DNA of 64,000 bases, from contig NZ_CP060397.1 of the NCBI RefSeq assembly GCF_015840715.1, forward strand, positions 3,430,686 through 3,494,685, given 5' to 3'. A program made the position numbers and the translations under genes. The DNA comes from Synechococcus sp. CBW1004. Its GTDB lineage: Bacteria > Cyanobacteriota > Cyanobacteriia > PCC-6307 > Cyanobiaceae. The notes under the pieces are model-generated. The model had not been told where the DNA came from and did no database searches. It saw nothing but the letters and a program-made list of their open reading frames with translations. This document shows positions 2,534 to 20,481 of this stretch, one piece after another (the stretch's first letter is position 1; each line of letters starts with the position of its first letter).

Positions 2534-2566
2534 GATGGGGTCGGCCGATCGGATCCGGAGACGTCC

Positions 2567-2821: not shown

Positions 2822-2915
2822 CTGCGCCAGTCGGCTGCAGCGCTGGTGGAGGACGCGGCGCGATCAGCTGCGCCGGAGCTCTGCCCTGCCGCCGGAGGAT
2901 CCGGAGCCGGATGGC

Positions 2916-3071: not shown

Positions 3072-3712
3072 GCCTGCAGCCTATGGGCCAGGGCGCTGCC
3101 GTGCCACCGCCCGGCCAGTGAGGCGGCGTCGAGGCGCTCCAGCGGCGGCAGCTCCAGCAGCACCGGCACGCCGCCCAGCTCGGTGAGGGTGCGGGGATTG
3201 TCGGCGTGGAGGGGGCCGTTGAGCACCAGGCCCAGCACCGGAATGCTCCGTCGCTCCAGGACCTCCAGCGACAGCAGCGTGTGGTTGAGCGTGCCCAGGC
3301 CGCTGCGGGCCACCAGCAGCACCGGCAGGCGCCAGTGGGCGATCTGCTCAATCTGCAGCCAGTCGCGCCGCAGCGGCACGAGCAGCCCCCCCGCTGTCTC
3401 CACCACCAGCGGGCCCGGGACCTGCTCGAGGGTCGGCAGCTCCAGCTTCTGTCGATCGATCCGCACCCCCTCCCGCTCGGCGGCCCAGTGGGGGGAGACC
3501 GGCGCCTCGAAGCGGTAGGCCTCCGGCAGCAGCCGTTCCGGCGGCAGGTTCAGCAGCCGCTGCACCCGGCCGCTGTCGCCCCCCTCCTCAAGGCCGCTCT
3601 GCACCGGCTTCCAATAGGTGGCGCCCAGGCCCTGAACCACCAGGGCGCTCACCACGGTCTTGCCGACGTCGGTGTCCGTGCCGACGATCACCAGTCGCGG
3701 ACCGGGGGCCAT
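3068..3712 (-). CDS. bioD: dethiobiotin synthetase
   Basis: BioD closes the ureido ring of dethiobiotin from 7,8-diaminononanoate, CO2 and ATP. The N-terminus carries the P-loop GTDTDVGKT (residues 11-19), followed by ATYWKPVQSGLEEGGDS, which matches the family's WKPVQTG segment, and VVETAGGLLVPL, the BioD version of the ExAGG motif. Length, 214 residues, is normal. It lies in the minus-strand run bioF-bioK-bioC-bioD, about 35 bases after bioC, and overlaps the next small ORF by four bases. Confidence 0.93.
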   Translation of the reverse strand: MAPGPRLVIVGTDTDVGKTVVSALVVQGLGATYWKPVQSGLEEGGDSGRVQRLLNLPPERLLPEAYRFEAPVSPHWAAEREGVRIDRQKLELPTLEQVPGPLVVETAGGLLVPLRRDWLQIEQIAHWRLPVLLVARSGLGTLNHTLLSLEVLERRSIPVLGLVLNGPLHADNPRTLTELGGVPVLLELPPLERLDAASLAGRWHGSALAHRLQA

Positions 3713-3747
3713 GCTGCGCTCCTGCCTTGTGGTTCAGCGGCGGCACC

Positions 3748-4812: not shown

Positions 4813-5555
4813 CACGCCTCCAGGTTCTGCAGCCAGGCCATCACCTCCGCCACCAGCCCTGGCTGCAGCAGGCAGTGCCCCGCCTTCTCCAGGGTCAGCC
4901 ACTGCAGCGGGTGCCGCCGCGTCTCCAGATCGCGCCGCAGCAGGGCGCGCGCCTCGGGCACGACGATGCGGTCCTGGGCGGCCTCCACCACCAGCACCGG
5001 GATGCCGTCGGGGAAGCCGGCGGGAAGCCCCTCGGTGCGGCCCAGCAGCTCCAGGTCCTGGCGGAGGCGCTGGCGCTGGAGTGTGCCCAGGGGGCCGTCG
5101 GCGGGGCCGGGCAGCAGCAGCGCCGGGTCCTCCGGGGCGGCCGCCTGCGCCATGAAGCTTTGCAGCATGGCCCGCGCCGTCAGGGGCTCGTTCAGCTGGG
5201 CGGCCATGCCCTCGAGGGCGGTCCGCAGGCGGCGTCCCGGCGCTCCGGGAGGCACGAATCGCCCGAAGCTCGCGAGCAGCACCACGGCGTCGGCCGCCGC
5301 GAGCAGCTCCGCGTTCAGCAGGTGCGGGCCCATCGAATGGCCGATCAGCACGCGCCGTCCGGCGTCCTGCCAGCCGGGCAGGAACGGTTCGGCCTCGCCA
5401 TAGCCCCGCTCGCCGCTCTGCCAGCTCCAGCCGGAGCGGGCGAAGGCTGTCCGCCAGGGATCCCAGTGGTGCGCCTGGCCATTCCAGCCATGCATCGCGA
5501 TCACCTGCAGCGGTGCCTGCGGGGTGAGGGCCTGAATTGACGAGGTCGGATGCAT
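4812..5555 (-). CDS. bioK: pimeloyl-ACP methyl ester esterase, BioK/BioH-type alpha/beta hydrolase
   Basis: A 247-residue alpha/beta hydrolase. MHGWNGQAHHWDPW forms the oxyanion-hole region, RVLIGHSMGPHLL holds the nucleophile Ser (GHSMG), DRIVVPEARAL the acid and KAGHCLL the His. In the biotin pathway this enzyme would cleave the methyl ester of pimeloyl-ACP after BioC-primed elongation. Marine Synechococcus and Prochlorococcus use a non-homologous-context esterase called BioK in this operon position, so bioK is the most likely name; BioH is the functional equivalent. The start at 5555 lies 28 bases after the bioF stop. Confidence 0.78.
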   Translation of the reverse strand: MHPTSSIQALTPQAPLQVIAMHGWNGQAHHWDPWRTAFARSGWSWQSGERGYGEAEPFLPGWQDAGRRVLIGHSMGPHLLNAELLAAADAVVLLASFGRFVPPGAPGRRLRTALEGMAAQLNEPLTARAMLQSFMAQAAAPEDPALLLPGPADGPLGTLQRQRLRQDLELLGRTEGLPAGFPDGIPVLVVEAAQDRIVVPEARALLRRDLETRRHPLQWLTLEKAGHCLLQPGLVAEVMAWLQNLEA

Positions 5556-5583
5556 CGTGGGCAGAGGACCTGGCGAGGGCGGT

Positions 5584-6909
5584 TCAGCTGCTGGCATGGG
5601 TCGACAGGCGCGAGCAGGGAGGCCCCAGGGCCTTGAGCAGCCGCTCCAGCGTCCCCAGGGGAAGATCCTGGCGCAGCACCAGACGCAGACGGGCGGTGCC
5701 CTCCGGCACTGTCGGCGGCCGGATCGCCACGGTGAGCAGGCCGGCCCCCTCGAGCCGTTGCTGCAGCGCCAGGGCTTCGGCGTCGCCGCCCACCAGCAGC
5801 GGGAGCACCGGACCCTCTCCCGGTGGCCGCGGCCAGCCGGCGGTCTCAAGGGCGTCGCGCCAGCGCCGGGCTCGCTCCAGCAGTGCTTCGCACGGAGGTG
5901 CCGCTGCTGATCCGTCCCTGGCGGGCAGGGGTTCCTGTGGACTGGGTGCGGGATCCTCCGGGTTCTGCTGCCGCAGCCAGCGCAGCGCCGCCAGGGCGCC
6001 CGCGGCCAGGGGCGGTGCCAGGGCGGTGCTGTAGCGGAAGGCGCCGCAGTGCTGCAGCAGCCAGTCCCCCAGCAGGGCATCGCCGGCCAGGAAGGCGCCG
6101 CCGCTGCCGAAGGCCTTGCCGAAGGTGCCGCTCAGCAGGGTGTGGTCGCGCAGCTCCTGCGGCAGCTCAGCGCTGAGGCCGCGGCCGCCCACTCCCAGCA
6201 CCCCCAGGGCGTGGGCCTCATCCACCAGCAGCAGGGCGCCGTGCTCGGCGCACAGAGCGGCCAGCCGCGGCAGATCCGGGCTGGTGCCCTCCATGCTGTA
6301 CAGACTCTCGACCAGCACCAGAAGGCGCTGCATCGGGTCGCCCCGCCGTGCGTCTCGCAGGCGTTGCTCGAGGTCACCGGCATCGTTGTGGCGAAAGCGC
6401 TTGAGCCGGGCGCCGCTGGCCCGCACCCCCATCAGCAGCGAGTGATGGATGAGGCGATCGGCCAGCACCAGGCTGTGGCGATCCGCGAGGGCGGTGACGG
6501 CGCCGAGGTTCGCCTGGAAGCCGCTGGGGAACAGCAGCACCCGCTGGCGGCCGAGCCAGGCGGCCAGCTCCTCTTCCAGCTGCAGGTGCACGGGTCGGGT
6601 GCCGCTGATCAACCGCGAGGCGCCTGCACCCAGACCGCTCCGTTCCAGCTCGGCGGCAGCCGCCGCCAGCACGGCAGGGTGGCGGCTGAGGCCGAGGTAG
6701 TCGTTGCTGGCCAGATCCAGCAGGGGGGCGGCGCCGATGCCCTGGGGATCGGACGGCGTGCAGGGGGTGGGCTGCAGCAGGGTGCCGGCCGCAGGTGCGA
6801 ACGACAGCAGGCTGCGGCGGCGTGCGGGGGGGAGCTGGGCGAGTTGTTCGCGCAGCTGCTGGCGCCAGAGCGCCGCGGTGGCTGCTGCCGCTGGAGACTC
6901 TCTGGACAT
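5584..6909 (-). CDS. bioF: 8-amino-7-oxononanoate synthase
   Basis: BioF condenses pimeloyl-ACP with L-alanine using PLP. Motifs: LLDLASNDYLGLSRHPAV near the N-terminal third, GASRLISGTRPVHLQLEEEL, LLVDEAHALGVLGVGGRGL (PLP-contacting Asp/His) and SGTFGKAFGSGGAFLAG with the Schiff-base Lys. The ATG at 6909 gives 441 residues, slightly longer than the usual 380-400 because of an Ala-rich N-terminus and an insertion rich in Pro/Glu before the C-terminal domain. It is the first gene of the minus-strand bio operon. The 190 bases upstream hold no recognisable gene and presumably the promoter. Confidence 0.93.
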   Translation of the reverse strand: MSRESPAAAATAALWRQQLREQLAQLPPARRRSLLSFAPAAGTLLQPTPCTPSDPQGIGAAPLLDLASNDYLGLSRHPAVLAAAAAELERSGLGAGASRLISGTRPVHLQLEEELAAWLGRQRVLLFPSGFQANLGAVTALADRHSLVLADRLIHHSLLMGVRASGARLKRFRHNDAGDLEQRLRDARRGDPMQRLLVLVESLYSMEGTSPDLPRLAALCAEHGALLLVDEAHALGVLGVGGRGLSAELPQELRDHTLLSGTFGKAFGSGGAFLAGDALLGDWLLQHCGAFRYSTALAPPLAAGALAALRWLRQQNPEDPAPSPQEPLPARDGSAAAPPCEALLERARRWRDALETAGWPRPPGEGPVLPLLVGGDAEALALQQRLEGAGLLTVAIRPPTVPEGTARLRLVLRQDLPLGTLERLLKALGPPCSRLSTHASS

Positions 6910-7102
6910 CGCGGCAATTCCTCGCGACTGCTGTTCAGTCTGGTGCCTGGTCCATGGGCCCAGGCGGTATGGCGCTACGGAGCTGGCGGCCCCCTGGCCC
7001 CTGGCCAGTCCTCCGGGCAAGATGCAGGCGGGCGCACCGGGCATCACGCCTGTGGAGGACTGCTTGCCGTTGGGACGTGGCAGAAGGATGCGCTCTCCTG
7101 GT

Positions 7103-7396
7103 TCAGCTCTGTGCCTGCATCGCGATGCTCACCGCCATGTTGGGCTGTAGGGATTCACCTCAACGCTCTGTATCTGCGGCCGCAGCACCAGGTCCATGTC
7201 CTCCATCGGGATCGCTCCCAGCAGCATCTCGTTGCCGAGCACCATCGCGCCGCTCCAGCTCGCTCAGCTGCAGCAGGATCGCCAGATGCTCCGGGATGCA
7301 CAGATGCACGGCGCCGCTGTCCGCCAGGGCCGACACCTCCACGGCGTCCAGCTCGGGCCGGCTGGGGTTCAGAAGCGTGAAGCGGCCGCGGATCAA
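7103..7396 (-). pseudogene. clan AA aspartic protease, internally deleted and frameshifted
   Basis: The start encodes MIRGRFTLLNPSRPELDAVE then VSALADSGAVHLCIPEHLAI, the DTG-like active-site region (here ADSGA) of the small retropepsin-like protease family of cyanobacteria. Immediately after LQLSELERR the frame is lost. Shifting frame, the downstream bases read AMVLGNEMLLGAIPMEDMDL followed by VNPYSPNMA and a stop at 7103, which is the C-terminal flap and end of the same family. About 35-40 codons between the halves are missing and the join is out of frame near 7250. The gene is therefore a deletion remnant; the loss size is estimated from memory of the family. Confidence 0.7.
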
Positions 7397-7551
7397 ACCC
7401 GTGCACCGATACTGAGTTGAATGCTAGCGAGACTGTTCCCGGAGGCTGTCGCGGGTCAGGACATGGGCTGCCGTCCAGCGTGCCGCTCCATTTCCCCAGG
7501 TTCATAGCCAAGCCTGCAGTGGAGGCCGCAGCTGGGTTCACGCCTGACAGA

Positions 7552-8235
7552 TCACACCGCCCAGATCTCCACCAGCTCCAGCCGCAGCCCCGGGAAGCCG
7601 TCGCCGCCCTCCAGCGCGCTCGGCTGCTCAAGGCGCTCGGAGTCCAGCGCCGCGCCGCCCGCCGCAGCCGGCGCCGGGACGCCGGAGCCCCGCCAGATCT
7701 CCACCGCACGCTGCTCGGGGTGGATCAGCCAGCCCAGCCTGTCGCCGTTGGCAATGTAGGCGCTCATCTTGCGGCGCAGGGCGCTGATGCCGCGCGGCCC
7801 TTCGTCGCTGGCGCTGGCCAGTTCGATCACCAGATCGGGGCAGAGCGGCGGGAAGCCGCGGCGCTGCTCGGGCGTGAGGGCCTGCCAGCGCTCTTGCCGC
7901 ACGGCGCTGGCGTCGGGGCTGAGCACCGAGCCATCGCCCAGGCGAAAGCCGCTGGAGCTGTCGAAGACGATCCAGCCGCCCTGATGATTGGCCCAGGTCT
8001 GCAGCTGAAAGGTGAGCTGGGTGTTCCGGGCCCCGGTGTCGCCTCCAGTCGGTGTCATCTCGATCAGGTGGCCCTCGGCCGACAGCTCCAGAACCGCATC
8101 GGGGTTGGCCTCGCACAGCTGGGCGAACTGCTCCGGCGTGAACCGCAGCCCTTCACGGAGTTCGCGCGGCAGGGTGAGCTCGCAGGGCAGCGTTGGCTCA
8201 GGCGGCAGGCTGGGCGAAAGCGGCAGCGTGACCAT
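7552..8235 (-). CDS. Uma2 family (DUF820) putative endonuclease
   Basis: A 227-residue protein of the Uma2/DUF820 restriction-endonuclease-like fold, very common and repeated in cyanobacteria. The family landmarks are LRFTPEQFAQLCEANPDAVL then LELSAEGHLIEMTPTGGDTG, GFRLGDGSVLSPDASAVRQE (catalytic Asp region), CPDLVIELASASDEG and a Lys in ALRRKMSAYIANG, ending in LGWLIHPEQRAVEIWR. The true targets of these proteins are unknown. The ATG at 8235 is chosen because the family normally begins shortly before such a segment. The neighbour just downstream is the protease remnant, so this stretch may be a small patch of mobile or decaying accessory genes. Confidence 0.85.
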   Translation of the reverse strand: MVTLPLSPSLPPEPTLPCELTLPRELREGLRFTPEQFAQLCEANPDAVLELSAEGHLIEMTPTGGDTGARNTQLTFQLQTWANHQGGWIVFDSSSGFRLGDGSVLSPDASAVRQERWQALTPEQRRGFPPLCPDLVIELASASDEGPRGISALRRKMSAYIANGDRLGWLIHPEQRAVEIWRGSGVPAPAAAGGAALDSERLEQPSALEGGDGFPGLRLELVEIWAV

Positions 8236-8379
8236 GACCCTGCGGGGACTGGAGCAGGTTGACTCTAGGGAGGCTTCCCAGGCCGGGACGCGGATGTCCC
8301 GAAGGGGCACTGCGTGGGGGTGGCTGCGGGCTTGATGGGATGCAGCGTCCTCCCCACCGTCAGCCCATAGGATCGGCCC

Positions 8380-11232
8380 ATGCCCGAGCAGGACACCACC
8401 GGCACCGTGCCGCCCCTCGGGCAGCTGTTCCCCTTTCCGCTCGATGGTTTCCAGCTGGAGGCGATCGATGCGCTCAACCAGGGCCATTCGGTGGTGGTCA
8501 GTGCCCCCACCGGTTCCGGCAAGACGCTGGTGGGCGAATACGCCATCCACCGCGCCCTGGCCCATGGCCGCCGCGTCTTCTATACGACGCCGCTGAAGGC
8601 CCTCTCCAACCAGAAGCTGCGCGATTTCCGCGAGCAGTTCGGGGCCGAGCGCGTCGGCCTGCTCACCGGTGACCTCAGCCTCAATCGCGAGGCCCAGGTG
8701 GTGGTGATGACCACCGAGATCTTCCGCAACATGCTCTATGCGGAGATCGATCACCCCGACAACGATCCGCTCGTCGATGTCGAGGCGGTGGTGCTTGACG
8801 AGTGCCACTACATGAACGATTCCCAGCGCGGCACCGTCTGGGAGGAATCGATCATTCACTGCCCCTCCACCATCCAGCTGGTGGCCCTCTCGGCCACGGT
8901 CGCCAACGCCGGGCAGCTCACCGACTGGCTGGAGCGGGTGCATGGCCCCACCCGGCTGGTGTGGAGCGATTTCCGGCCGGTGCCGCTGGCCTTCAGCTTC
9001 TGCAGCGCCAAGGGCCTGCATCCGCTGCTCAACGACGAGGGCACAGGGCTGCATCCCAACTGCAAGGTCTGGCGCCCTCCCAAGACCACCCGCCGCAAGG
9101 GCCCGAAGCTCCCCAAACCGCCCCAGCCGGAGGCGCCGCCGATCGGCTTCGTGGTGGCGCAGATGGCGGATCGGCAGATGCTGCCGGCGATCTATTTCAT
9201 CTTCAGCCGCCGCGGCTGCGACAAGGCTCTGCGGGATCTCTCCAAGGCCTCGTTGGTGACGCCCGAGGAGCAGGCGCGCATCCGCGCCCGTCTCGAGGCG
9301 TTTGTGGCCACCGCACCCGAGGCGGTGCGTGAGGGCGGCCACGCCGACGCGTTGCTGCGCGGCATCGCCGCCCACCACGCCGGGGTGCTGCCGGCCTGGA
9401 AGGAGCTGATCGAGGAGCTGTTCCAGCAGGGCCTGATCAAGGTGGTGTTCGCCACCGAAACCCTGGCGGCGGGCATCAACATGCCGGCACGCACCACCGT
9501 GATCTCAGCGCTCTCCAAGCGCACCGAGCGCGGCCACCGGCCGCTGATGGGCAGCGAGTTCCTGCAGATGGCGGGCCGTGCCGGCCGCCGCGGCCTCGAC
9601 ACCCAGGGCTACGTGGTGACGGTGCAGAGTCGCTTCGAAGGCGTGCGCGAGGCGGGCCAGCTGGCCCTGGCGCCGGCCGATCCGCTGGTGAGCCAGTTCA
9701 CCCCCAGCTACGGCATGGTGCTCAACCTGCTGCAGCGCTACGACCTGGCCAAGGCGCGCGAGCTGGTGGAACGCAGCTTCGGCCGCTACCTGGCCAGCCT
9801 CGATCTGGCCGAAGATGAGGCCCGCATCGCCGAGCTCGTCGCCCAGTTCGATCGCCTCTCCTCCACCGCCGGCGACATCCCCTGGGAGGAGCTGGAGGAC
9901 TACGAGAAGCGCCGCGGCCACCTGCGCGAGGCACTCCGCCTGCTGCGCATCCTGCAGCAGCAGGCCGAGGAGACGGTCGCCCACGAGCTCACCCTGGCGC
10001 TGCAGTTCGCCAGCGAGGGCACCCTGGTGAGCCTGCGCTGCCCGCAGCTGCGCAGCCGCGTCACCCCTGCGGTGATCGCCGCCAAGGTGCCGGGGCCAGG
10101 GCAGTTCCCGCTGCTGCTCTGCCTCACCGATGAGAACGTCTGGATCCTGCTGCCCTGCAGCGCCGTGGTGGCCCTGCACGCCGAGCTGGCCTGTCTGCAG
10201 GTGAAGCAGCTCGACCCGCCGGAGCTGCAGCACGTCGGTGAGCTGCGCCACGGCGACAACGCCAGCGGCGGCATGGCCCTGGCGGTGGCGTCGCTGGCTC
10301 GCCGCCATGACATGCACACCCCCCGCTACGACCTGCAGGAGGAGGTGCGCCAGCAGGCCGAGCAGGTCCGGTTGCTCGAGGATGAGCTGGAGGCCCATCC
10401 CGCCCACGGCTGGGGCGATCGCAAGCAGCTGCGCAAGCAGCAGCGCCGCATGGAGGAGCTGCACGACGAGATCGAGGAGCGGCGCCGGCTGCTGCATCAC
10501 CGCTCCAACCGCCACTGGGACACGGTGCTGCAGCTGATCGAGGTGCTGCGCGTGTTCGGTGCCCTGGCCGGCGACGACGGCCTCGAGCCCACCGAGGTGG
10601 GCCGCACGGTGATGGCCCTGCGCGGCGACAACGAGCTGTGGCTGGGGCTGGCGCTGATGAGCGGCCATCTCGATGAGCTCAGCCCCTCGGAGCTGGCGGC
10701 GGTGCTGGAGGCGATCTCCACCGAGGTGAACCGCCTCGATCTGTGGTGCGCCTGGCAGCCGCCGGCGGCGGTGGAGGAGGCGATGCACGACCTGCGCGGC
10801 CTGCGCCGCGAGCTGGGGCGCCAGCAGGAGCGCCGCGGCCTGGTGATCCCGATCTGGTGGGAGCCGGAACTCACCGGCCTGGTGCATGCCTGGGCCGAGG
10901 GGGCCAGCTGGAGTGAGCTGATCGCCTCCACCTCGCTCGATGAGGGCGACGTGGTGCGGGTGATGCGCCGCACGGTGGACCTGCTGGCCCAGCTGCCCTA
11001 TGCCGAGGTGATCAGCGAGCAGCTGCGCACCAAGGCCCGCAAGGCCCTGAGGGCGATCAACCGCTTCCCGGTGTGCGAGCTGGAGGATCTGCTCCCGAAG
11101 GGGCAGAACGGCAATGGCGTCGCGCCGGAGCAGGCACAGGGTCAGGAGGCGGTGTCGGCCTCGATGGCTGGCTCTGGAGTCCTCCCGCAGGACGCTGACT
11201 CCGCGGCGGGAGACGCCCCCGCCACCCTCTGA
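8380..11232 (+). CDS. Ski2-like DEAD/DEAH-box RNA helicase with DSHCT domain
   Basis: A 950-residue superfamily 2 helicase. Motifs in order: SAPTGSGKTLVGEYAI (motif I), DECHYMND (motif II, DExH type), VALSATVANA (motif III), VFATETLAAGINMPARTTV (motif V) and QMAGRAGRRGLDTQG (motif VI). A C-terminal DSHCT-like region (LEPTEVGRTVMALRGDNELW onward) matches Ski2/Mtr4 proteins and the plant plastid helicase ISE2. A charged coiled-coil stretch (about 660-720) precedes it. Likely role is RNA remodelling or turnover. It stands alone, convergent with the penicillin-binding protein downstream. Confidence 0.9.
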   Translation: MPEQDTTGTVPPLGQLFPFPLDGFQLEAIDALNQGHSVVVSAPTGSGKTLVGEYAIHRALAHGRRVFYTTPLKALSNQKLRDFREQFGAERVGLLTGDLSLNREAQVVVMTTEIFRNMLYAEIDHPDNDPLVDVEAVVLDECHYMNDSQRGTVWEESIIHCPSTIQLVALSATVANAGQLTDWLERVHGPTRLVWSDFRPVPLAFSFCSAKGLHPLLNDEGTGLHPNCKVWRPPKTTRRKGPKLPKPPQPEAPPIGFVVAQMADRQMLPAIYFIFSRRGCDKALRDLSKASLVTPEEQARIRARLEAFVATAPEAVREGGHADALLRGIAAHHAGVLPAWKELIEELFQQGLIKVVFATETLAAGINMPARTTVISALSKRTERGHRPLMGSEFLQMAGRAGRRGLDTQGYVVTVQSRFEGVREAGQLALAPADPLVSQFTPSYGMVLNLLQRYDLAKARELVERSFGRYLASLDLAEDEARIAELVAQFDRLSSTAGDIPWEELEDYEKRRGHLREALRLLRILQQQAEETVAHELTLALQFASEGTLVSLRCPQLRSRVTPAVIAAKVPGPGQFPLLLCLTDENVWILLPCSAVVALHAELACLQVKQLDPPELQHVGELRHGDNASGGMALAVASLARRHDMHTPRYDLQEEVRQQAEQVRLLEDELEAHPAHGWGDRKQLRKQQRRMEELHDEIEERRRLLHHRSNRHWDTVLQLIEVLRVFGALAGDDGLEPTEVGRTVMALRGDNELWLGLALMSGHLDELSPSELAAVLEAISTEVNRLDLWCAWQPPAAVEEAMHDLRGLRRELGRQQERRGLVIPIWWEPELTGLVHAWAEGASWSELIASTSLDEGDVVRVMRRTVDLLAQLPYAEVISEQLRTKARKALRAINRFPVCELEDLLPKGQNGNGVAPEQAQGQEAVSASMAGSGVLPQDADSAAGDAPATL

Positions 11233-11339: not shown

Positions 11340-13871
11340 TCACACCTGGCGCATGAACTGCCCCCACAGTTCGGCGGCCAGGGCGCCGGCGGAGGCTTCG
11401 GCGGGGCTGCTGTCGTCGTTGCCCAGCCACACGCCGGTGAGGATGCCCTTGCTGGGCGAGTAGCCGATGAACCAGGCGTCGCGGCCATCGTTGGTGGTGC
11501 CGGTCTTGCCGCGGGCATCGGCCACCACCGCAGCGTTGCGGCCGGTGCCGACCTCCACCGCCCGCCGCAGCATGGCGTCCATCTGAGCGGCGATCTCCGG
11601 GGCGAGCAGCTGCTGCGGTTTCTCTGGCAGGGGCTCGAAGATGCCGTGGCTGGGGCAGCTGTTGAGGGCCAGCTCCGAGCGGCAGATGGCGAGGTCGTAG
11701 ATCCGCTCGACGCCATGCATCGGCACGGTGCGGCCGCCGTTGCCCACCACCGCGAAGGCGCGCGCCATCTCATAGAGGAGCACCTCATTGCCGCCCAGCA
11801 CCATGCTCGGATCCGGCTGCAGGTGGGGTGAGGAGATGCCGAGCCGGCGGGCCATGGCGATCACCTCGTCGAAGCCCACCCGATCGGCCAGATGCAGCGC
11901 CACCGGGTTTTCGGAATAGGCCAGACCATCGCTCATGCTCATCGCCGCCTCCCCCCGCAGGCAGCCGCTCTCCAGCTGAAAGATCGGGGCGCACGACATG
12001 CTGTCGCCGGGCTTCACCCCCTGCTCGAGCGCCGCCAGATAGGTGAACAGCTTGAAGGTGGAGCCGGGCTGCCGCAGCGACTGGACGCGATCAAACCTGT
12101 AGTCGCCGCCGCCCACGTAGGCCAGGATCTTTCCGGTACGGAGATCGAGGCTGATCAGGGCGGCCTGGTGCACGCCGAGCGGCCGGGCCTCGCTCTCGAG
12201 AAACTGCTGCACGCTGCGCTGGGCCAGCGCCTGCAGCTCCGGGTCGATCGTGGCGACGACGTGATAGTTGCCGCCTTCCCGGCTGGGGTCGATGTTGAGC
12301 GAGAAGCGCTGCCCCTCGATCTCCCACATTGCGTAGTCGCTGAAGAAGGGATAGCTCACCCAGCGCGACTGCTGGCAGGCGGCAGCATCGAAGATCAGCG
12401 GGCTGCGCACCGCATCGCGGTACTGCTCGCGGTTGAGATAGCCCTCCTCGAGCATGCGGCGCAGCACCAGATCGCGGCGCAGCTTCGGTGTCCACACCTG
12501 TTCATCCGGCAGCGGGGTTTCCGCTCTGCCGGTCTTCTGTTCGCGCGCCAGCCGCCGCGCCCGCAGCTCACTGGGGCCGGGGGCGCAGATGTTGTAGCCG
12601 TTCGGGCTCGGCAGTAACCCCACCAGGTAGGCCGCTTCGCTGGCATTGAGCTGGCGCGCCGATTTGCGGAAATAGAGCTGAGACGCCTGCTCGAAGCCCT
12701 CGGTTCCCAGGCCCAGAAAGGCGCGGTCGAGATAGAGCTTGAGGATCTCGCTCTTGTTGAAGCGGGTCTCCAGCTGCCACGACACCGGCAGCTCGCGGAT
12801 CTTGCGCGCCAGCACGCCCCAGCGGGTCGGGTCGCCGTTGGCATCGGTCTCGGGCGTGCTCACCCAGGGCCAGATCGACTGCGGATTGCCGCTCTTCACC
12901 CACGGGACCACCATGCGCGCCACCTGCTGGGTGAGGCCGCTGCCGCCGCCGCTGCGCCGCACCAGCGAGCGCAGGGTGCCGCCGATGTCGAGGCCGCTGT
13001 TCCAGCCGAAGCGCGCATCCTCCGAGGCCAGCAGCGCCTGGCGCAGCACCAGCGGATAGTCCTCCAGGGTCGGCAGGGCGGTGGCGGCCCCTTCGCGCGA
13101 ATCGATGCGCCGTCCGTCGGCCGCCACGATCTTCACCGGCCCGCCGATGAAGTCCACCCGGGAGCCGCCGGTGATCGTGCTCAGCAGCAGCAGGCCGCCG
13201 ATCACCGCACCTGATCCCACCAGCGAGGCCAGGCCCACCCCATGCACCAGCTGCTCCCAGGGGCTGCGCGGATAGTGGTACCGCAGGCTGGGCGCCTCGC
13301 GCAGGGGCGAGCCGAGCTGCACCTCGTCGCCATGGCGCAGGCCGATGGCGCGGAGGCGGCGGTCGTGTCGGTAGAGGCCGTTGGCGGAGTTGAAGTCCTC
13401 CAGCAGCCAGTCGCGGTCCCGGGGGCGCTCCTTCTCGACGAAGGCATGCACGCGGCTCACCCCCTGGCCGCGGGCCACCAGCTCACAGGTCGGATCGCGG
13501 CCGATGCGCACCCGCTCCTCCCCGAGCGGCAGCGCCTGCAGGCGCTGCCCTCCCTGCCAGAGCTCCAGCCGGGCCGTGCTGTGGTGGGCCCAGCGCCACA
13601 GGCGCTGGGCCGCCGCCAGGCGCGAGGATCCATCGCCCTGGAGCAGCTCCCGCCAGGGCGATGGATCCGCCAGGGAGCGTCCGGCGTCCGCCACGCCGGG
13701 GCCTCCAGACGCGGCGGTGCCGAGGGCGTCACCGTGGTGGTTGGGCTGGTCGTCGTGCTGCTGTGGCTGCCCTTCGCCTCCGCTTCGGGTGTGCGGCGCC
13801 CGGGTGCGGCCGGAGGGAACCGGGAGGTCCGTGCCGGCTGACTCCGGCAACTCCGACTCCCGCGCCGCCAT
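11340..13871 (-). CDS. class A penicillin-binding protein with N-terminal FHA domain
   Basis: An 843-residue bifunctional peptidoglycan synthase. An FHA phosphothreonine-binding domain lies at about 100-200 (VRIGRDPTCELVARGQGVSR, NSANGLYRHDRRL), a membrane helix at 212-235, then a GT51 transglycosylase domain with catalytic Glu in LLASEDARFGW (E284). The transpeptidase domain has STFK (604-607), SEN (653-655) and KTGT (789-792), all intact. The cytoplasmic FHA domain implies control of cell-wall synthesis by a Ser/Thr kinase; a kinase, phosphatase and second FHA protein are encoded just across on the other strand. The ATG at 13871 leaves about 54 bases before the divergent gene. Confidence 0.9.
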   Translation of the reverse strand: MAARESELPESAGTDLPVPSGRTRAPHTRSGGEGQPQQHDDQPNHHGDALGTAASGGPGVADAGRSLADPSPWRELLQGDGSSRLAAAQRLWRWAHHSTARLELWQGGQRLQALPLGEERVRIGRDPTCELVARGQGVSRVHAFVEKERPRDRDWLLEDFNSANGLYRHDRRLRAIGLRHGDEVQLGSPLREAPSLRYHYPRSPWEQLVHGVGLASLVGSGAVIGGLLLLSTITGGSRVDFIGGPVKIVAADGRRIDSREGAATALPTLEDYPLVLRQALLASEDARFGWNSGLDIGGTLRSLVRRSGGGSGLTQQVARMVVPWVKSGNPQSIWPWVSTPETDANGDPTRWGVLARKIRELPVSWQLETRFNKSEILKLYLDRAFLGLGTEGFEQASQLYFRKSARQLNASEAAYLVGLLPSPNGYNICAPGPSELRARRLAREQKTGRAETPLPDEQVWTPKLRRDLVLRRMLEEGYLNREQYRDAVRSPLIFDAAACQQSRWVSYPFFSDYAMWEIEGQRFSLNIDPSREGGNYHVVATIDPELQALAQRSVQQFLESEARPLGVHQAALISLDLRTGKILAYVGGGDYRFDRVQSLRQPGSTFKLFTYLAALEQGVKPGDSMSCAPIFQLESGCLRGEAAMSMSDGLAYSENPVALHLADRVGFDEVIAMARRLGISSPHLQPDPSMVLGGNEVLLYEMARAFAVVGNGGRTVPMHGVERIYDLAICRSELALNSCPSHGIFEPLPEKPQQLLAPEIAAQMDAMLRRAVEVGTGRNAAVVADARGKTGTTNDGRDAWFIGYSPSKGILTGVWLGNDDSSPAEASAGALAAELWGQFMRQV

Positions 13872-13925
13872 CCCTGCTGTCCTGTGTGCCGTTGGGCTGT
13901 TGCCATAGGCTACGGCCTGCAATCG

Positions 13926-14243
13926 GTGGGTCCAGAGGTGGAACAACGGCGCGATCCCTGGGCGCCCTTCCGGTTGTGGGTGGCCCTGACGATCGCTCTG
14001 TTCGCGCTTCGTGCCGTTTCGATCACCGCTCCCTTCGCCTGGCTGCGCGCGCTCGCCTCGATCCCCGGCTGGGTGCTGCTGCTGATGGTGATGGTGGCGC
14101 TTCTGCTGGCCAGCATCGCCCTGCTGTTCCCGGCCCGGATCGTTCCCTGGCGCGAGGGTGAGGCCGGTCTCTGGGCGGAGATCAGCGAGGACTGGCGCCA
14201 TCGCTGGCGCCGCGGTTCCGGGCGCCGGGGGGGCGGCCGATGA
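13926..14243 (+). CDS. small two-helix membrane protein upstream of FHA gene
   Basis: Reading from a GTG at 13926 gives about 105 residues starting GPEVEQRRDPWAPFRLWVAL. Two hydrophobic helices are visible, LWVALTIALFALRAVSI and PGWVLLLMVMVALLLASIAL, followed by a basic Trp/Arg-rich tail (WAEISEDWRHRWRRGSGRR). An earlier GTG at 13884 is possible, but it would leave only 12 bases to the divergent gene. Its stop overlaps the next start as ATGA, so it is coupled to the FHA protein. Family not recognised; a membrane partner of the signalling block is plausible from position only. Confidence 0.65.
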   Translation: MGPEVEQRRDPWAPFRLWVALTIALFALRAVSITAPFAWLRALASIPGWVLLLMVMVALLLASIALLFPARIVPWREGEAGLWAEISEDWRHRWRRGSGRRGGGR

Positions 14244-15109
14244 GTGGCGGGGCCCGGCTGGTGCTGCTCAGCGACCCCTCCAAGGTGGCGCCGCTGCATC
14301 CGTCCCGGCCGCACACGATCGGTCGGGAGGCCAGCAACCTGCTCTCCATGCCCACCACCGATGGAGTGGCGCCGCATCACGCCGTGGTGCGCTGCTCGCG
14401 CGCGCACGGCTGGCTGGTCTGCGACTGGGGCAGCCCGCAGGGCACCTGGCTGGAGGGGCAACGCATCCGCCACTGCCGCCCCCTTTCCGATGGCGATCAC
14501 ATCCAGCTGGGTCCGGAGGGCCCGGTGCTGGTGTTCCAGCTCCAGCCGCCGCCCGCCGCGGGCCGGCCCGCACCCGGGTCTGCAGATGCACCGCAGACGC
14601 CATCGGCGTCTGCCCGCACCGCCTCCGGGCCCAGGCAGGCGGTTTCGCCGCCCGCCACGGGGATGCCGCCTCCCGCTGCGGCCAGGCCGGCGGAGCGTCC
14701 GGTGATCACGCCAGCCCCTGCGCCGGGCCGGGCCGGCTCAGCAGCGGCGAGCCCCTCCGTTGTCCGCCCGGTCGCGGCGCCCCTGGCCTTCGCCGGCCGC
14801 CCCATTCCCCTCGAGCAGATCCGCTCCGCCCACGTGCAGAGCCGCGCCCGCTTCCCCCACAGCTTCAGCTGGTGGGTGCTGATCAGCCTCGGCGGCCTGG
14901 TGCTGCTGCCCTGGCCCTTCCTGTTCTGGCCCCTGGAGATCGCAGCGCTGGTGGCCTGGATCCTGCTCGGCTCACGCAAGGAGCATGTGCTGACGGTCAC
15001 CCTGCGCGATGGCATGGCCCACCGCCACAGCTTCGCCAACAGGATCACCGCCCTGAGCCATCGCAACGGCATCCGCGCTGCCATCGGCCAGAGCCTGGAG
15101 CGCGGCTGA
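14240..15109 (+). CDS. FHA-domain membrane protein
   Basis: A 289-residue protein. Residues 5-101 form an FHA domain: HTIGREASNLLSMP holds the Arg and Ser that bind phosphothreonine, HHAVVRC and GTWLEGQRIR complete the fold. A long Pro/Ala linker (about 102-200) leads to a C-terminal hydrophobic pair, WWVLISLGGLVLLPWPFLFW and LEIAALVAWILLG. The FHA domain would face the cytoplasm and recognise proteins phosphorylated by the kinase encoded next. It overlaps the preceding small membrane gene by four bases and lies 80 bases before the kinase. Confidence 0.82.
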   Translation: MSGGARLVLLSDPSKVAPLHPSRPHTIGREASNLLSMPTTDGVAPHHAVVRCSRAHGWLVCDWGSPQGTWLEGQRIRHCRPLSDGDHIQLGPEGPVLVFQLQPPPAAGRPAPGSADAPQTPSASARTASGPRQAVSPPATGMPPPAAARPAERPVITPAPAPGRAGSAAASPSVVRPVAAPLAFAGRPIPLEQIRSAHVQSRARFPHSFSWWVLISLGGLVLLPWPFLFWPLEIAALVAWILLGSRKEHVLTVTLRDGMAHRHSFANRITALSHRNGIRAAIGQSLERG

Positions 15110-15189
15110 GTGGTGGGATTCTCTCCGCGCGTCACCGCCCTGCGTCGCATCGCGCGCGACACCCTTCACCGTCACGATCCCTCGCTGCC

Positions 15190-16533
15190 ATGAACGCGAT
15201 GTTCCGCGAGGGAGCCGACCTCGCCTTCAGCAGCACCTCCAGCCCCGCCCGGGTGATCCGCTGCCTCGGCGGCGGCGGCCAGGGCCAGGTGTTCGAGGTG
15301 GCCTTCGCCGGCGAACCGATGGCCATGAAGTGGTACTTCCCCAGCTGCCTGCAGCGGGATCCCGGCCTGCGCGAGCGGCTGCGCAACAGCATCCGCACCG
15401 CCAGCCCCAATGCCAGCTTCCTGTGGCCGATCGTGCTGCTGCAGCCCACGCCCCAGTGCCAGGCGGAGCTGCGCATCCCCGCCGGAAGTTTCGGCTACAT
15501 GATGAAGCTCAGGCCGCCGGAGTTCGTGGGGGCGGTGGACCATGGCGCCGGGCGTCTTGCGATCAGCCTGCGGGCAGTGCTGCGCGCCTGTTTCCTGCTG
15601 GCGGAAGCCTTCCATGCGCTGCACAGCAAGGGCCTCTGCTACAAGGACATCTCGCTGGGCAATCTCTTCCTCGATCCCGCCAGCGGTCGCATCCTGATCT
15701 GCGATAACGACAATGTCGATGTCAACGGCTCTGCGCTCGCGGGTGTCAAGGGAACGCCTGGATTCATGGCCCCGGAAGTGCTGCTCGGTCGCGCCACCCC
15801 CGGCACCCAGAGCGATCTCTTTTCCCTGGCGGTGCTGCTGTTTCGCCTGCTCACCCGCCACGATCCCTACCGCGGCCGCCTCGAACTGCTGATCCGCTGC
15901 CTCGATGAACCGGCGCGGCTGCGTCTTTATGGCGAGGATCCGGTGTTCATCTTCAGCGAGGACGATGGCCGCAACCGTCCCGATCCGCTCGAGCATCCGG
16001 CGCCGCTGCTCACCTGGCCGATCTATCCGCCTCCGCTGCAGCAGCTGTTCCAGCGCAGTCTCGGGGTGGGCGCCAGGCAGCCCTCCCAGCGGGCCTACAC
16101 CGGCGAATGGATGAAGGCCCTGGCCCGCACGCTCGATCAGCGCCGCTTCTGCCCCCACTGCCGGCAGGAGGTGTTCCCGGAGCCGGGGCAACCGGGCCAG
16201 TGCTGGGCCTGCGGCGGCAGCTTCCCCGCCGGTCCGCGTCTGCTCGCCCCAGCCGCGGTGGTGGCGGCGGCGCCGGAGAACGAACTGCATCGCCACCACT
16301 TCGATCCGCTCGCGGCCGAACGAATCGATGCGCCGCTCGGCCGCATCGTCACCCATCCTTCGGATCGCGATCTGCAAGGGCTTGAGAACCTCACCACGCA
16401 CCCCTGGCGCCTGGAGCTCCGCGGCGGCGAGACGCTGGAGCTGCCACCGGGAAAGCGCTGTAATCTCGCCACTCTCGGGTGCGTTCACACCCCCCTGGGC
16501 CGTGTGACTCTGGAGCGCTCAGGGGAGCGCTGA
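15190..16533 (+). CDS. Ser/Thr protein kinase-like protein with C-terminal zinc ribbon
   Basis: A 447-residue protein kinase. Gly-rich loop GGGGQGQVFEV (27-37), ATP-binding Lys in MAMKW (K47), catalytic loop YKDISLGNLF (K152, D153, N158), metal-binding region CDNDN in place of DFG (172-174) and APE at 194-196. After the kinase fold, CPHC (321-324) and CWAC (338-341) form a four-cysteine zinc ribbon, and a small beta-rich C-terminal domain follows. Kinases of this shape occur in the TerY-P triads beside vWA and PP2C proteins, which is exactly the order here. DND instead of DFG is unusual but keeps an acidic residue. Confidence 0.82.
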   Translation: MNAMFREGADLAFSSTSSPARVIRCLGGGGQGQVFEVAFAGEPMAMKWYFPSCLQRDPGLRERLRNSIRTASPNASFLWPIVLLQPTPQCQAELRIPAGSFGYMMKLRPPEFVGAVDHGAGRLAISLRAVLRACFLLAEAFHALHSKGLCYKDISLGNLFLDPASGRILICDNDNVDVNGSALAGVKGTPGFMAPEVLLGRATPGTQSDLFSLAVLLFRLLTRHDPYRGRLELLIRCLDEPARLRLYGEDPVFIFSEDDGRNRPDPLEHPAPLLTWPIYPPPLQQLFQRSLGVGARQPSQRAYTGEWMKALARTLDQRRFCPHCRQEVFPEPGQPGQCWACGGSFPAGPRLLAPAAVVAAAPENELHRHHFDPLAAERIDAPLGRIVTHPSDRDLQGLENLTTHPWRLELRGGETLELPPGKRCNLATLGCVHTPLGRVTLERSGER

Positions 16534-16604
16534 ATCATCGGCTGTCCCCTGGTTGATGCCGCGCGATTCTTCATCCTTCAAGCCTGTTTTTCGCCGCCTT
16601 GCTG

Positions 16605-17393
16605 ATGGCTTTTCCAGACGTTCAGCTCTCCCGCCGTCCCCTCCATTTCATCTATCTGTGCGACTGCTCCGGCTCGATGCTGGCGGGCGGCAAGATGCAG
16701 GCGCTCAATCAGGCCATCCGCCAGTCGCTGCCCGCGATGGTGGAGGTGGGTCGCCAGAACCCCGAGGCGCGCCTGCTGGTGCGGGTGCTCGGTTTCGGCA
16801 GCGAGGCCCGCTGGCACCTCGCCGAGCCCACGCCGGTGGAGCAGGTGCCGCAGCTGTGGGTGGACCTGCAGGCCGGGGGGATGACGGCCATGGGATCCGC
16901 GCTTGAGCAGCTGGCGGCGGTGCTGCGGACGCCGCCGATGGAGCAGCGGGCCCTGCCGCCGGTGCTGGTGCTGATCTCCGATGGTGCCCCCACCGATGGC
17001 TTCGAGCGGGGTCTGGCCACCCTGATGGCCGAGCCCTGGGCGAAGAAGGCGGTGCGTCTGGCGATCGCCATCGGCCATGACGCCGATCTGGAGGTGCTGC
17101 AGCAGTTCATCGGTCCGGAGCCCGGCGGGTCCGGTGGGTCCTGGGCTGGGCCCGACGGCGACCGCCTGCCCGGTCAGCCGGCCCGGCCCGGCGCCCGGCC
17201 GCTGCAGGCCAACGACAGCGGCACCCTGGCCCGCTACATCCAGTGGGCCTCCACCGCCGTGGTCGGGGCCGCCTCCCAGCCCCGCAGCCAGCCCGGTGGC
17301 GCCGTGGCGGGCAACGTGCCCTTGCCCGACCTGCCGCCCACCTGGATCGACCCGGTCGATTCCGCCGGCCTCGACGCCCGCCAGGTCTGGTGA
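16605..17393 (+). CDS. TerY-like von Willebrand factor A domain protein
   Basis: A 262-residue vWA protein. The metal-ion-dependent adhesion site is intact: DCSGSM (D20, S22, S24), T94 in GGMTAMGSAL and SDGAPTD (D126 and nearby). There is no signal peptide, so it is cytoplasmic, as TerY-type proteins are. The ATG at 16605 was chosen over an upstream TTG (16599). Its stop overlaps the phosphatase start (GTGA). With the kinase before and PP2C after, it forms a three-gene phosphorylation module in which the vWA protein is thought to act as metal-dependent scaffold or substrate; that role is inferred from the family. Confidence 0.85.
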   Translation: MAFPDVQLSRRPLHFIYLCDCSGSMLAGGKMQALNQAIRQSLPAMVEVGRQNPEARLLVRVLGFGSEARWHLAEPTPVEQVPQLWVDLQAGGMTAMGSALEQLAAVLRTPPMEQRALPPVLVLISDGAPTDGFERGLATLMAEPWAKKAVRLAIAIGHDADLEVLQQFIGPEPGGSGGSWAGPDGDRLPGQPARPGARPLQANDSGTLARYIQWASTAVVGAASQPRSQPGGAVAGNVPLPDLPPTWIDPVDSAGLDARQVW

Positions 17394-19651
17394 ACCACTG
17401 GATCCGCCCCAGCTGCGACAGCCGCACCGGTGCCTCCCATCTGCGACGCGGCGCCCCCTGCCAGGACGCCAGCGGCTTCGCCGGCTTCCGGGATGCCGCC
17501 GGCACTCCCGTTCAGGTTCTGGTGGTCTCCGACGGCCACGGCGGCTCCCGTTATGTGCGCAGCGATGTGGGAGCCCGGCTGGCCTGTGAGGTGGCGTTGC
17601 GCACGGTGGAGGAGACCCTGCGCACCAGCCGCACTGGCCAGGCCGGCAGTGAATCCGAGTGGCGGCAGTGGTTGGCCGAAACCCTGCCCCAGGCGATCGT
17701 CGAGGCCTGGCTGGAGGAGGTGCAACGCCACTGGCAGGCCCAGGGCCCCCAGGGCTCCGAGTCTGTCCCCGCATCGCTCCCCGCGTTGGCCGCCGGCTCG
17801 GCCGAGGCAGCGGCGGCTGCGTCACCTGCGGGCTTCTCCCCCATCCCCTATGGGGCAACGCTGGGCCTGCTGGTGCTCACCCCCCGCTGGTGGGGCTACA
17901 CCGGCTTGGGCGACTGGGATCTGGTGCGGATCGAGGCCGCCGGCGAGGGGCGGCTGATCAGCGAGGAATCCGAGGCCGGCGGCGGTAGCGAGGCCACCTA
18001 CAGCCTCTGCATGCAGGGTGCCGCCCGGTACTTCGCGCCCCGCACGGCTCTGCTGCCCCTGACGGTCGATACCGCGCCGTTCGCATTGCTGCTGTGCAGC
18101 GATGGCCTGCGCAAGTCCTGTGGCAGCGACGCCGATTTTCTGACCCTCTGCCGCTATCTGGTGGGGCTTGCGCCGGCTGCGGATCAGGCCGTCTCCGCCG
18201 AGCTGGCCGAGGCCCTCGATCACATCAGCCGCCAGGGCAGCGGCGACGACATCAGCGTCGCGCTGGCCAGCTGGGCTGCGGCGGGTCAGGCCGCGGGCTG
18301 GCCCGGGCCGGGCCGGAGTCTGCCGCCGCGGTTGGTGCAGCCGGCGCCTGAGGTGGTCTCCGGGCTCCCGGTCGATGCGGCGGCGGCGGACGGTGTGGTG
18401 GCAGCGGGGTTGGGGGCGACCTCACCTTCGGAAGGCACGAGTGGGGTCGGGGTCGCCGCTCCCCTTCCTGGAGCGGCAACGGGAGCTTCGGCGCCGCCGA
18501 TCGCCTCCCGCCGCGTCGGACCCACCTCCAGCGGGCCCCAGCCGGCTGCTGGCCGTCGGCCCAGCTCTTCTGTTCACCGGCGGGGGCGCCAGCGGGTCGT
18601 GGTGGCACTGGTGCTGCTGGGCCTGGGTGGTGCCGGACTGGTGATCGCCGCCGTCCTGGGTCGCGGGCCGCTCGCCGGCCGCCGTGAGCCGGCATCCCTC
18701 GTCCTGACGTCCCGGCAGCGCAGCGACCTGCAGCGGCAGGTGGCCCTCCTCTGCGACTCGGCAGCGGTTCCAGGTGGCGGGCAGGAGCCCGCCGGCGAGG
18801 CGCTGGAACGCGGGACGGCCGCCGGCCGGGGTGCCGATGCAGCCCGCAGCGGGATCGCCTCCGCCGGTCGGGGACCTGCCCCGGTGGCAGGCAGTTCGGC
18901 AGCGACCGGGGCTCCACCGTCTCCGGGCCGGCAGCCCGCCGCGACAACCACCGGGAGGATTGCCGGCACACCTGCCACCACCGGGTCCGGGGACGTTGCG
19001 AAAGGAAGCACCGTTCCCCCCCGATCGGGGATGGCCCAGGGAGCCGCTGGGCCGCTGCGCTCCACCGCTGAACCCGCCACCCCTGTCGCCGGCGCGCTCT
19101 CCAGCGGCGCAACCGCTGCGGCCAGGCCTCCCGATCCCCAGCGCCTGCAGCGCATCGCCGCCACCCTGGCAGCCCGCGCCAGCATCTTCCAGCGGCTGGA
19201 GCGAGGCGAGCCCGCGCGGGTGACCACCGCGCTGAGCCAGAGCCAGGCCGATCCCCTCACGGCTCTGATCGCCTACAGCGCCACCGATCCCACCCTGCGG
19301 CCCGTGCCGCCGCCGCCGGAGCGCACGGGATGGTGGTCCTCCCTGGGGCGACATGCCGCCGGCCTGCTGCCGTTCGCGACCCGTCCGGGCGGGAGCTCCC
19401 TCGAGGCCGCTTCCCCCGTGGCGGAGCTGGGGGCCTGCCCTGAACTCACCCAGGCGTTGCGGGCCGCCTGGCAGCGTCAGGACTCCCCCGGAGCGGTGCA
19501 GAGCCCGGCAGCCCCCTCGCCAGCTGCGGTTCCGCTCCGGGCCGGAGGCGACGGTCGTGCTCCTTCCGGGCAGTCCGGACCGGCCGGCGCGCCTCGTGCT
19601 GCTGCGGCCAGGATGCCGGCGTCTCCGGATCCAGGCGCGTCCTCCCGCTGA
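17390..19651 (+). CDS. PP2C-family protein phosphatase, membrane-anchored
   Basis: A 753-residue protein starting at a GTG that overlaps the vWA stop. The N-terminal 295 residues are a PP2C domain: CQDASGF (first metal Asp), VVSDGHGG (48-52), LLLCSDGLRK (about 235-242) and GSGDDISVAL (283-292). A Pro/Ala/Ser-rich linker leads to one transmembrane helix (VVVALVLLGLGGAGLVIAAV, about 403-422). The remaining roughly 330 residues, outside the membrane by this topology, are low-complexity with a short folded region rich in Arg and Leu. It would reverse phosphorylation by the adjacent kinase. Nothing recognised in the outer part. Confidence 0.85.
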   Translation: MNHWIRPSCDSRTGASHLRRGAPCQDASGFAGFRDAAGTPVQVLVVSDGHGGSRYVRSDVGARLACEVALRTVEETLRTSRTGQAGSESEWRQWLAETLPQAIVEAWLEEVQRHWQAQGPQGSESVPASLPALAAGSAEAAAAASPAGFSPIPYGATLGLLVLTPRWWGYTGLGDWDLVRIEAAGEGRLISEESEAGGGSEATYSLCMQGAARYFAPRTALLPLTVDTAPFALLLCSDGLRKSCGSDADFLTLCRYLVGLAPAADQAVSAELAEALDHISRQGSGDDISVALASWAAAGQAAGWPGPGRSLPPRLVQPAPEVVSGLPVDAAAADGVVAAGLGATSPSEGTSGVGVAAPLPGAATGASAPPIASRRVGPTSSGPQPAAGRRPSSSVHRRGRQRVVVALVLLGLGGAGLVIAAVLGRGPLAGRREPASLVLTSRQRSDLQRQVALLCDSAAVPGGGQEPAGEALERGTAAGRGADAARSGIASAGRGPAPVAGSSAATGAPPSPGRQPAATTTGRIAGTPATTGSGDVAKGSTVPPRSGMAQGAAGPLRSTAEPATPVAGALSSGATAAARPPDPQRLQRIAATLAARASIFQRLERGEPARVTTALSQSQADPLTALIAYSATDPTLRPVPPPPERTGWWSSLGRHAAGLLPFATRPGGSSLEAASPVAELGACPELTQALRAAWQRQDSPGAVQSPAAPSPAAVPLRAGGDGRAPSGQSGPAGAPRAAAARMPASPDPGASSR

Positions 19652-19755: not shown

Positions 19756-20481
19756 ATGACCCTGCAGCTGCTGCTCGACACCGCCGATCCCGCCGCCTGG
19801 AAGGCCTGGCTGCCGAGCGGGCTGTTCCGTGGGGTGACCACCAATCCCACCCTGCTGCGGCGCGCCGGCCGGCCCTGCAGTCTCGAGAGCCTGCAGGATC
19901 TGGCCCATCAGGCGTTCTCCCTTGGGGCCCGGGAGCTGCATCTGCAGACCTGGGGCGCTGATGTCGAGGCGGCCACGGCAACGGGCCTGGCGCTCGGGGC
20001 GATCGATCCGGCGCGGGTGCTGGTCAAGGTGCCGCTCACCCGCCGCGGCGCCGAGGCGGCCCGGCGGCTGATCGAGGCGGGGCTGCCCGTCACCTTCACC
20101 GCCTGCTACGAGCCGCATCAGGTGCTGATCGCGGCCGCCCTGGGAGCCCGTTATGTGGCGCCCTATCTGGGGCGGATCAGCGACAGCGGCCGCGATGGCC
20201 ACGCCGAGCTGATCGCGATGCAGCGCTGCCTCGATGGGGTGGGCACCGGCACGCGCCTGCTGGTCGCCAGCCTGCGCCACCCGGACGATCTTGCCCGCCT
20301 GGCCGCCGCCGGCATGGGCACCTTCACCCTCGGCCCGGATCTGGCCGCCGCCCTGTTCGCCAGCGAGGCCACCGCCGCTGCAGCGGCGCAATTTGAAAAG
20401 GACGCGGCAGCGGCGCAATTTGAAAAGGATGCGGCAGCGGCGCAGTTTGACTGCGACACCGCAGCGGCGCCGGTGCCATGA
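19756..20481 (+). CDS. small transaldolase / fructose-6-phosphate aldolase-like protein
   Basis: A 241-residue TIM-barrel protein of the short transaldolase group. LLLDTADPAAWKAWLPSGLF, GVTTNPTLL (26-34) and ARVLVKVPLTRRG with the Schiff-base Lys (K91) are diagnostic, as is PVTFTACYEPHQVLIAAALG then GARYVAPYLGRISDSG. It would transfer or cleave dihydroxyacetone units of sugar phosphates; whether transaldolase or F6P aldolase cannot be told. The last 30 residues are an Ala-rich tail built of three copies of AAAAQFEKD, encoded by a 27-base tandem repeat, not part of the enzyme fold. Confidence 0.82.
   Translation: MTLQLLLDTADPAAWKAWLPSGLFRGVTTNPTLLRRAGRPCSLESLQDLAHQAFSLGARELHLQTWGADVEAATATGLALGAIDPARVLVKVPLTRRGAEAARRLIEAGLPVTFTACYEPHQVLIAAALGARYVAPYLGRISDSGRDGHAELIAMQRCLDGVGTGTRLLVASLRHPDDLARLAAAGMGTFTLGPDLAAALFASEATAAAAAQFEKDAAAAQFEKDAAAAQFDCDTAAAPVP
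20377..20457 (+). repeat. three tandem 27-base units inside the transaldolase-like gene
   Basis: Units at 20377-20403, 20404-20430 and 20431-20457, each nine codons reading AAAAQFEKD; the third has diverged to AAAAQFDCD. The period is a multiple of three, so the frame is kept. Confidence 0.9.

Follow-up and report, generated by a model that had tools for sequence, protein, structure and literature searches.

The question raised by this locus is why a gene for a peptidoglycan synthase should face a group of signalling genes on the opposite strand, and whether the two sides constitute a single inherited switch whose output is cell-wall synthesis. Within the window, by which is meant the whole stretch of 64,000 nucleotides that was analysed, the original prediction had recognised four consecutive plus-strand genes encoding an FHA protein, a zinc-ribbon kinase, a vWA protein with an intact MIDAS and a PP2C phosphatase with a membrane helix. 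Each of these four assignments held, but a fifth plus-strand gene at around 13938-14243 had been missed, and the layout is consequently that of a class A penicillin-binding protein (PBP) on the minus strand facing five plus-strand genes:

11340 to 13871 (frame open to 14201), minus strand: class A FHA-PBP ('type A'), assigned from Pfam matches and invariant FHA residues.
13872 to 13937, no strand: divergent intergenic stretch between the PBP and the plus-strand genes, defined by the start positions.
13938 to 14243 (about), plus strand: small membrane protein without a Pfam family, the orthologues of which adjoin other genes of the block.
14240 to 15109, plus strand: FHA-membrane protein, assigned from Pfam, an orthologue model and fold matches.
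15190 to 16533, plus strand: divergent Ser/Thr-type kinase with a C-terminal zinc ribbon, assigned from Pfam and alignment.
16150 to 16212, plus strand: the four-cysteine zinc ribbon of the kinase (residues 321-341), marked by invariant cysteines.
16605 to 17393 (alternative start TTG 16599), plus strand: TerY-like vWA protein with an intact MIDAS, assigned from Pfam and alignment.
17390 to 19651, plus strand: PP2C-type phosphatase with a C-terminal membrane helix and a predicted extracytoplasmic tail (PP2C_2, E 4e-26; invariant catalytic motifs).
18590 to 19651, plus strand: membrane helix (residues 401-426) and two-cysteine tail of the phosphatase, located by hydrophobic segment, tail profile and orthologue model.

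The presence on the opposite strand of a class A PBP carrying an FHA domain, as originally proposed, was confirmed by Pfam matches to Transgly, Transpeptidase and FHA, and the type A architecture comprises an N-terminal cytoplasmic FHA domain, one membrane helix, a transglycosylase domain and a transpeptidase domain. SED, LTQQ-like, SxxK, SEN and KTG sequences, the transglycosylase/transpeptidase motifs of class A PBPs, were seen by eye in the window protein, with the Transgly motif deviating in places from its usual spelling. The PBP start was judged likeliest to be the ATG at 13871, which, taken with a start for the small gene at 13938, gives a divergent gap of 66 bases in place of the 54 first reported. 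As its relatives align from residue 3, the vWA start was placed at the ATG at 16605, probably correctly. Overlaps of 4 bases occur at two junctions, between the small gene and the FHA gene and between the vWA and PP2C genes. Beyond the block, a DEAD/DSHCT helicase (window 8380-11232) adjoins the PBP; as none of the fetched relatives has it next to the module, it was rejected as a member of the block and regarded as a chance neighbour. A transaldolase-like protein (window 19756-20481) bears near-identical AAAAQFEKD repeats in its C-terminal part.

Identification of the kinase was based on a Pfam Pkinase match (residues 136-229, E 2.8e-15) and on the retention of K47, D153 and D172, the glycine-rich loop, K47, the KD(I/V)S..N catalytic loop (KDIS..N in the window) and D172 being invariant in 21 orthologues except at the I/V position; the ribbon cysteines C321, C324, C338 and C341 were likewise invariant in the 21 aligned kinases. 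The only hydrophobic stretch (residues 123-141) falls inside the kinase domain, and no Pfam match to PASTA was found in the protein. Where DFG is usual the window kinase reads DND, a substitution that had been put forward as a sign of an inactive enzyme. This proposal was rejected: DND is present in 36/36 relatives' kinases, a 37th fragment (L067) representing the second part of a split gene, while Escherichia coli YegI has DSD at the equivalent position of the profile alignment (E 8.3e-7), so that the motif is a trait of this kind of kinase and not decay. Loci from named records were left out of that count, ILICDNDN having been a search pattern and DND therefore partly guaranteed; kinases found by profile outside the family (L166-L169) likewise read DNDN. 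The neighbouring vWA protein (Pfam VWA, E 1.7e-5) retains the MIDAS residues D22, S24, S26, T96 and D128, invariant in 17 aligned sequences, and the PP2C catalytic motifs were invariant in 30.

Together these three genes make up a combination reportedly described by Anantharaman et al. in 2012 as the TerY-P triad, and the original recognition of that triad was sound: a MIDAS-intact vWA, a PP2C and a kinase with a C-terminal zinc ribbon are encoded together here too. In the excerpted text of PMC11090510 the triad consists of a TerY-like vWA, a PP2C and a Ser/Thr kinase with a C-terminal zinc ribbon, and in that source and in excerpts of PMC10889362 TerY-P and TerY-P-like modules figure as metal-sensing, stress or antiphage systems. 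The present block differs in adding an FHA class A PBP, an FHA-membrane protein and a small membrane protein, in the membrane helix and predicted extracytoplasmic tail of its PP2C, and in that, unlike TerY-P, no ter genes or nucleases were recognised among the module genes.

The distribution of the genes was then the principal evidence bearing on whether the PBP belongs with the triad. Kinase orthologues were found in 37/201 Cyanobiaceae genomes, one further genome (G171) having been left out as it gave only a distant match (E 1.1e-6), and the vWA gene was found in the same 37. When the FHA-helix part of the PBP was used as query, 100 genomes matched with a clear gap in strength, 35 at E<=1.7e-41 and the rest at 2.3e-19 or weaker and located elsewhere. 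The 35 carriers of the type A FHA-PBP so defined all lie inside the 37 kinase and vWA carriers, and the type occurs in 0/164 genomes without the triad. Both triad carriers lacking it, G029 and G120, are Prochlorococcus, the latter genome being 74% complete with a contig that ends near the kinase. A Fisher test on the 201 genomes gave p 4e-37, a value that greatly overstates the independent evidence because the genomes are related; there are only about three clear contrasts independent of one another (g1, g30 and g34).

The original expectation that a five-gene order including the FHA-PBP would be conserved in relatives was upheld, and extends to six genes: order and strands were kept in 33/36 relatives fetched, in a 34th (G182) the block is broken across two contig ends with its parts in keeping, and the remaining two hold kinase, vWA and PP2C only. 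These last three genes lie together on one contig in 35/36 relatives and are split between contigs in one. All six genes were present in 50/56 named Cyanobiaceae loci, a count not independent of the preceding one since many of the genomes are the same; five of the other six loci are cut by contig ends, and the sixth, L105 (Prochlorococcus sp. MIT 0701), is truly without the PBP, the small gene and the FHA-membrane gene. One record titled as a Bifidobacterium breve metagenome-assembled genome (MAG; L113) holds a cyanobacterial six-gene module, and its label is therefore probably wrong or its bin contaminated.

In most relatives the module occupies the same chromosomal site, close to PSRP-3, HAD and PepP, and in 12/12 chosen module-less relatives the stretch examined (12.5-16 kb) had these three flanking genes together and 0 of the six. 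In genus g34, to which G101 belongs, the other listed members lack the triad, and PSRP-3, HAD and PepP do not adjoin the G101 module. The G101 kinase falls within genus g9 (support 96/85), as does its PBP (support 95/94, in a tree of 27/35 sequences, the rest having been dropped by a motif filter), and its PepP groups with g34 (100/100). Horizontal transfer of the whole block into G101 would be the simplest reading of these trees. The six genes are thus inherited, lost and transferred as one unit in some picocyanobacteria, and the notion that the PBP is a chance neighbour was rejected on the strength of the co-occurrence in 201 genomes and the joint transfer into G101.

Such co-inheritance, co-loss and co-transfer with the FHA-PBP suggests that the switch may control wall construction, and the link that had originally been proposed is to that extent supported in part. 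With moderate confidence, the six genes are regarded as a single inherited switch of TerY-P type, the output of which is a class A peptidoglycan synthase reading phosphothreonine through its cytoplasmic FHA domain. In such a switch the cytosolic zinc-ribbon kinase would phosphorylate a threonine on itself or on a partner (the vWA protein, the FHA-membrane protein or the small membrane protein), and the FHA domain of the PBP would dock on the phosphorylated site, thereby recruiting or switching the synthase. The FHA-membrane protein might compete for, or present, the same phosphosite, and the membrane-anchored PP2C would remove the phosphate when its wall-facing two-cysteine tail senses a wall or redox signal. 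Of this scheme, the data show the domains, their intact motifs and the inheritance, loss and transfer of the genes together; we infer the phosphosite, the direction of regulation, the signal and the effect on peptidoglycan. The triad itself is already known as TerY-P; it is the dedicated pairing with a wall synthase that is new, and literature searches, conducted mainly on open-access text without supplements, found no description of a TerY-P triad tied to an FHA-PBP.

The extent to which an FHA-PBP requires this particular triad was approached through the FHA and kinase repertoires of individual genomes. Three FHA matches were found in each of 6/6 module-bearing genomes tested, namely two module proteins and a second FHA-PBP encoded elsewhere, and the single FHA match in each of 5/5 module-less genomes tested was this second FHA-PBP. 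As these were the only FHA matches in the six genomes, any phosphothreonine mark recognised there by FHA domains would be relayed mainly to class A PBPs. The second protein has the same FHA, transglycosylase and transpeptidase domains but differs in its FHA-helix part (31-46% identical, for full-length rows of the second type) and in occurring without the triad. Both FHA matches in G029 sit in one FHA-ABC transporter, and in L105 (1852-12035) the sole FHA matches of the genome are two within one FHA-ABC transporter, the gene for which lies some 4.8 kb from that of the kinase; trypsin/TPR proteins are encoded between the two genes and after them.

These repertoires lend some credence to an alternative that is nevertheless considered unlikely, in which the FHA-PBP obeys another Ser/Thr kinase, the triad has other targets, and the genes are kept together for shared regulation only. 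The paralogous FHA-PBP is common in genomes without the triad, a kinase-family match besides the triad kinase was found in 12/12 genomes tested (some of them weak), and the two observations together indicate that FHA-PBPs need not depend on this triad. In the window's own genome (G000, near 310 kb; L163:8043-10451) the second FHA-PBP has BioY and a DUF697 GTPase as its neighbours, and no kinase was found next to it among nine ORFs scanned. Against this alternative stands the behaviour of the type A protein itself, absent from every one of the triad-less genomes and moved with the triad into G101.

Rather less probable still is a second alternative, that the block is a TerY-P stress or anti-phage cassette, with the triad as a sensor of metal or infection and the PBP as its effector or guarded target under stress, not as part of routine wall growth. 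It draws on the roles given to TerY-P and TerY-P-like modules in the parts of the literature cited above (PMC11090510, PMC10889362), on kinase matches to the PADLOC models mad6 (1.9e-19) and PD-T4-6 (2.1e-14), and on the patchy distribution of a module transferred at least once. Those PADLOC matches are confined, however, to the kinase domain, accompanied by a weak TerY match (0.0018) and by none for the other block proteins; the fixed site near PSRP-3, HAD and PepP in most relatives is unlike a defence island, and the helicase next to the window module recurs beside it in none of the fetched relatives.

A phosphothreonine-binding FHA domain carries the signature GR, SxxH and N-G, and the type A FHA domain agrees with it in 34/34 aligned sequences, G234, R235, S249, R250, H252, N274 and G275 (numbered from the ORF start at 14201) being invariant. 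The FHA-membrane protein consists of an FHA domain, a proline-rich linker and a membrane hairpin inside a DUF6232-like domain, the match to DUF6232 being weak (E<=1 in 12/29 members). Its L101 orthologue was modelled with a mean pLDDT of 82.9 and gave FHA domains as fold matches. In this second FHA domain Gly and His are invariant, Arg varies in a few orthologues, and many have D, Q or T at the position of the usual Asn (Q in the window), so that phosphothreonine binding seems doubtful in many species. The small membrane protein has two hydrophobic segments, is conserved beside other block genes, and matched no Pfam family. That the FHA domains are phosphate-independent scaffolds, tethering the PBP to the small and FHA-membrane proteins in a complex at the membrane to which the kinase and phosphatase are peripheral, could explain the missing Asn but is very improbable given the whole phosphothreonine-binding set kept in the PBP.

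The two-cysteine tail of the phosphatase is a feature new here. Beyond the catalytic domain lies a membrane helix, corresponding to the hydrophobic segment at residues 401-426 in the window, and thereafter some 100-150 residues that usually include two cysteines; since the protein has a single helix, the tail would be extracytoplasmic. A profile of the tail scored at least 20 bits in 48/53 named Cyanobiaceae PP2Cs, 12 of the 48 being seeds of the profile, as against 0/19 outside the family; contig ends truncate the PP2Cs of L051, L074 and L094. In the first genome set the tail was present in 32/36, the exceptions being one protein truncated at a contig end, G101 and the two genomes without the PBP. 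Among the named loci it was missing from L064 (G101; PBP present), L100 (PBP present, with an odd long frame) and the Prochlorococcus loci L105 and L110. A strict pairing of tail and PBP was rejected, L064 and L100 carrying the PBP without a tail match. The window tail has both cysteines but is lengthened by low-complexity sequence and scored 19.9 bits only. Pfam searches of the tail returned no convincing family; the L101 model showed a helical domain past the membrane helix (approximately residues 360-450; block pLDDT 89-96), and a fold search with the PP2C model gave PP2C domains in the 50 matches listed, which are uninformative on the tail.

Comparison with two further systems helps to define what has been added to the triad. 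In E. coli, yegL, pphC (yegK) and yegI also encode a vWA, a PP2C and a kinase near each other; YegI matched the kinase profile as noted above, with DxD replacing DFG, and the vWA matched at E 1e-5. The E. coli locus differs in having no FHA protein or PBP among its annotated neighbours, and the PP2C similarity is very weak. The actinobacterial pknB-pknA-pbpA-rodA-pstP-fhaB-fhaA locus, tied to wall growth and division, resembles the present block in bringing together a kinase, a PP2C, two FHA proteins and a penicillin-binding protein, and comprises a PASTA receptor kinase, separate FHA proteins, PbpA and RodA, in the excerpted text of its description (PMC6554272). The block has instead a soluble TerY-P-type kinase, a vWA protein and an FHA domain fused to a class A PBP. 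PbpA is a class B PBP, and a scan of the block proteins and the two proteins next to them revealed no RodA. The actinobacterial case does show that wall growth can be governed from a locus that combines a kinase, a PP2C, FHA proteins and a PBP. The block is not a member of the PknB/PstP wall cluster, there being no PASTA kinase, no RodA and a PBP of class A, and the two were likely assembled independently. A bolder, and distinctly tentative, extension of the proposed switch would be that the triad has been turned into a membrane-bound wall sensor, in which a disulfide-stapled helical domain of the phosphatase, not the kinase, does the sensing, phosphothreonine gating of the class A PBP is the output, and the whole is a second, independently assembled equivalent of PknB/PstP/FHA/PBP.

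Should the wall-synthase switch prove correct, the TerY-P triad, the substrate and output of which are poorly known, would gain a concrete partner, and cyanobacteria would gain a way of controlling wall synthesis by phosphorylation, on a par with the kinase systems found in Gram-positive bacteria. The search for the signal has a defined starting point in the phosphatase tail, and deletion and transfer tests should be clean because this is a small module that moves as a unit and that close relatives lack.

Relatives of the kinase outside the family occur in Chloroflexi, Methylococcales, Desulfobacterales, Firmicutes and other cyanobacteria, with vWA and PP2C genes nearby in 19/24 loci. A PBP match was absent from 23/24 of these loci, several of them cut short, and the single match (L144), a weak one of 62 bits, lies at a distance of about 6 kb. 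Across the class the kinase profile matched 18/388 genomes, nine of them outside the family, and no PBP was found near the kinase in those nine. FHA proteins as general partners of the triad were mostly rejected, a home-made FHA profile giving clear matches in 2/24 outside named loci (L125, of which L164 is a duplicate, and L143), a count to be read with several loci being short and divergent domains possibly being missed; weak matches (28-32 bits) were recorded in three further cyanobacterial loci, L167-L169. In three loci of Chloroflexi type (L128:4595-6661, L131:4433-6991 and L135:9284-11992) a second gene matching the kinase profile directly follows the first. In L125, from a Pegethrix bostrychoides MAG (1213-10323), an L,D-transpeptidase (YkuD), an FHA protein and an FHA-PrsW intramembrane protease lie between the PP2C and the kinase, a single case that hints at a different wall enzyme placed beside FHA readers.
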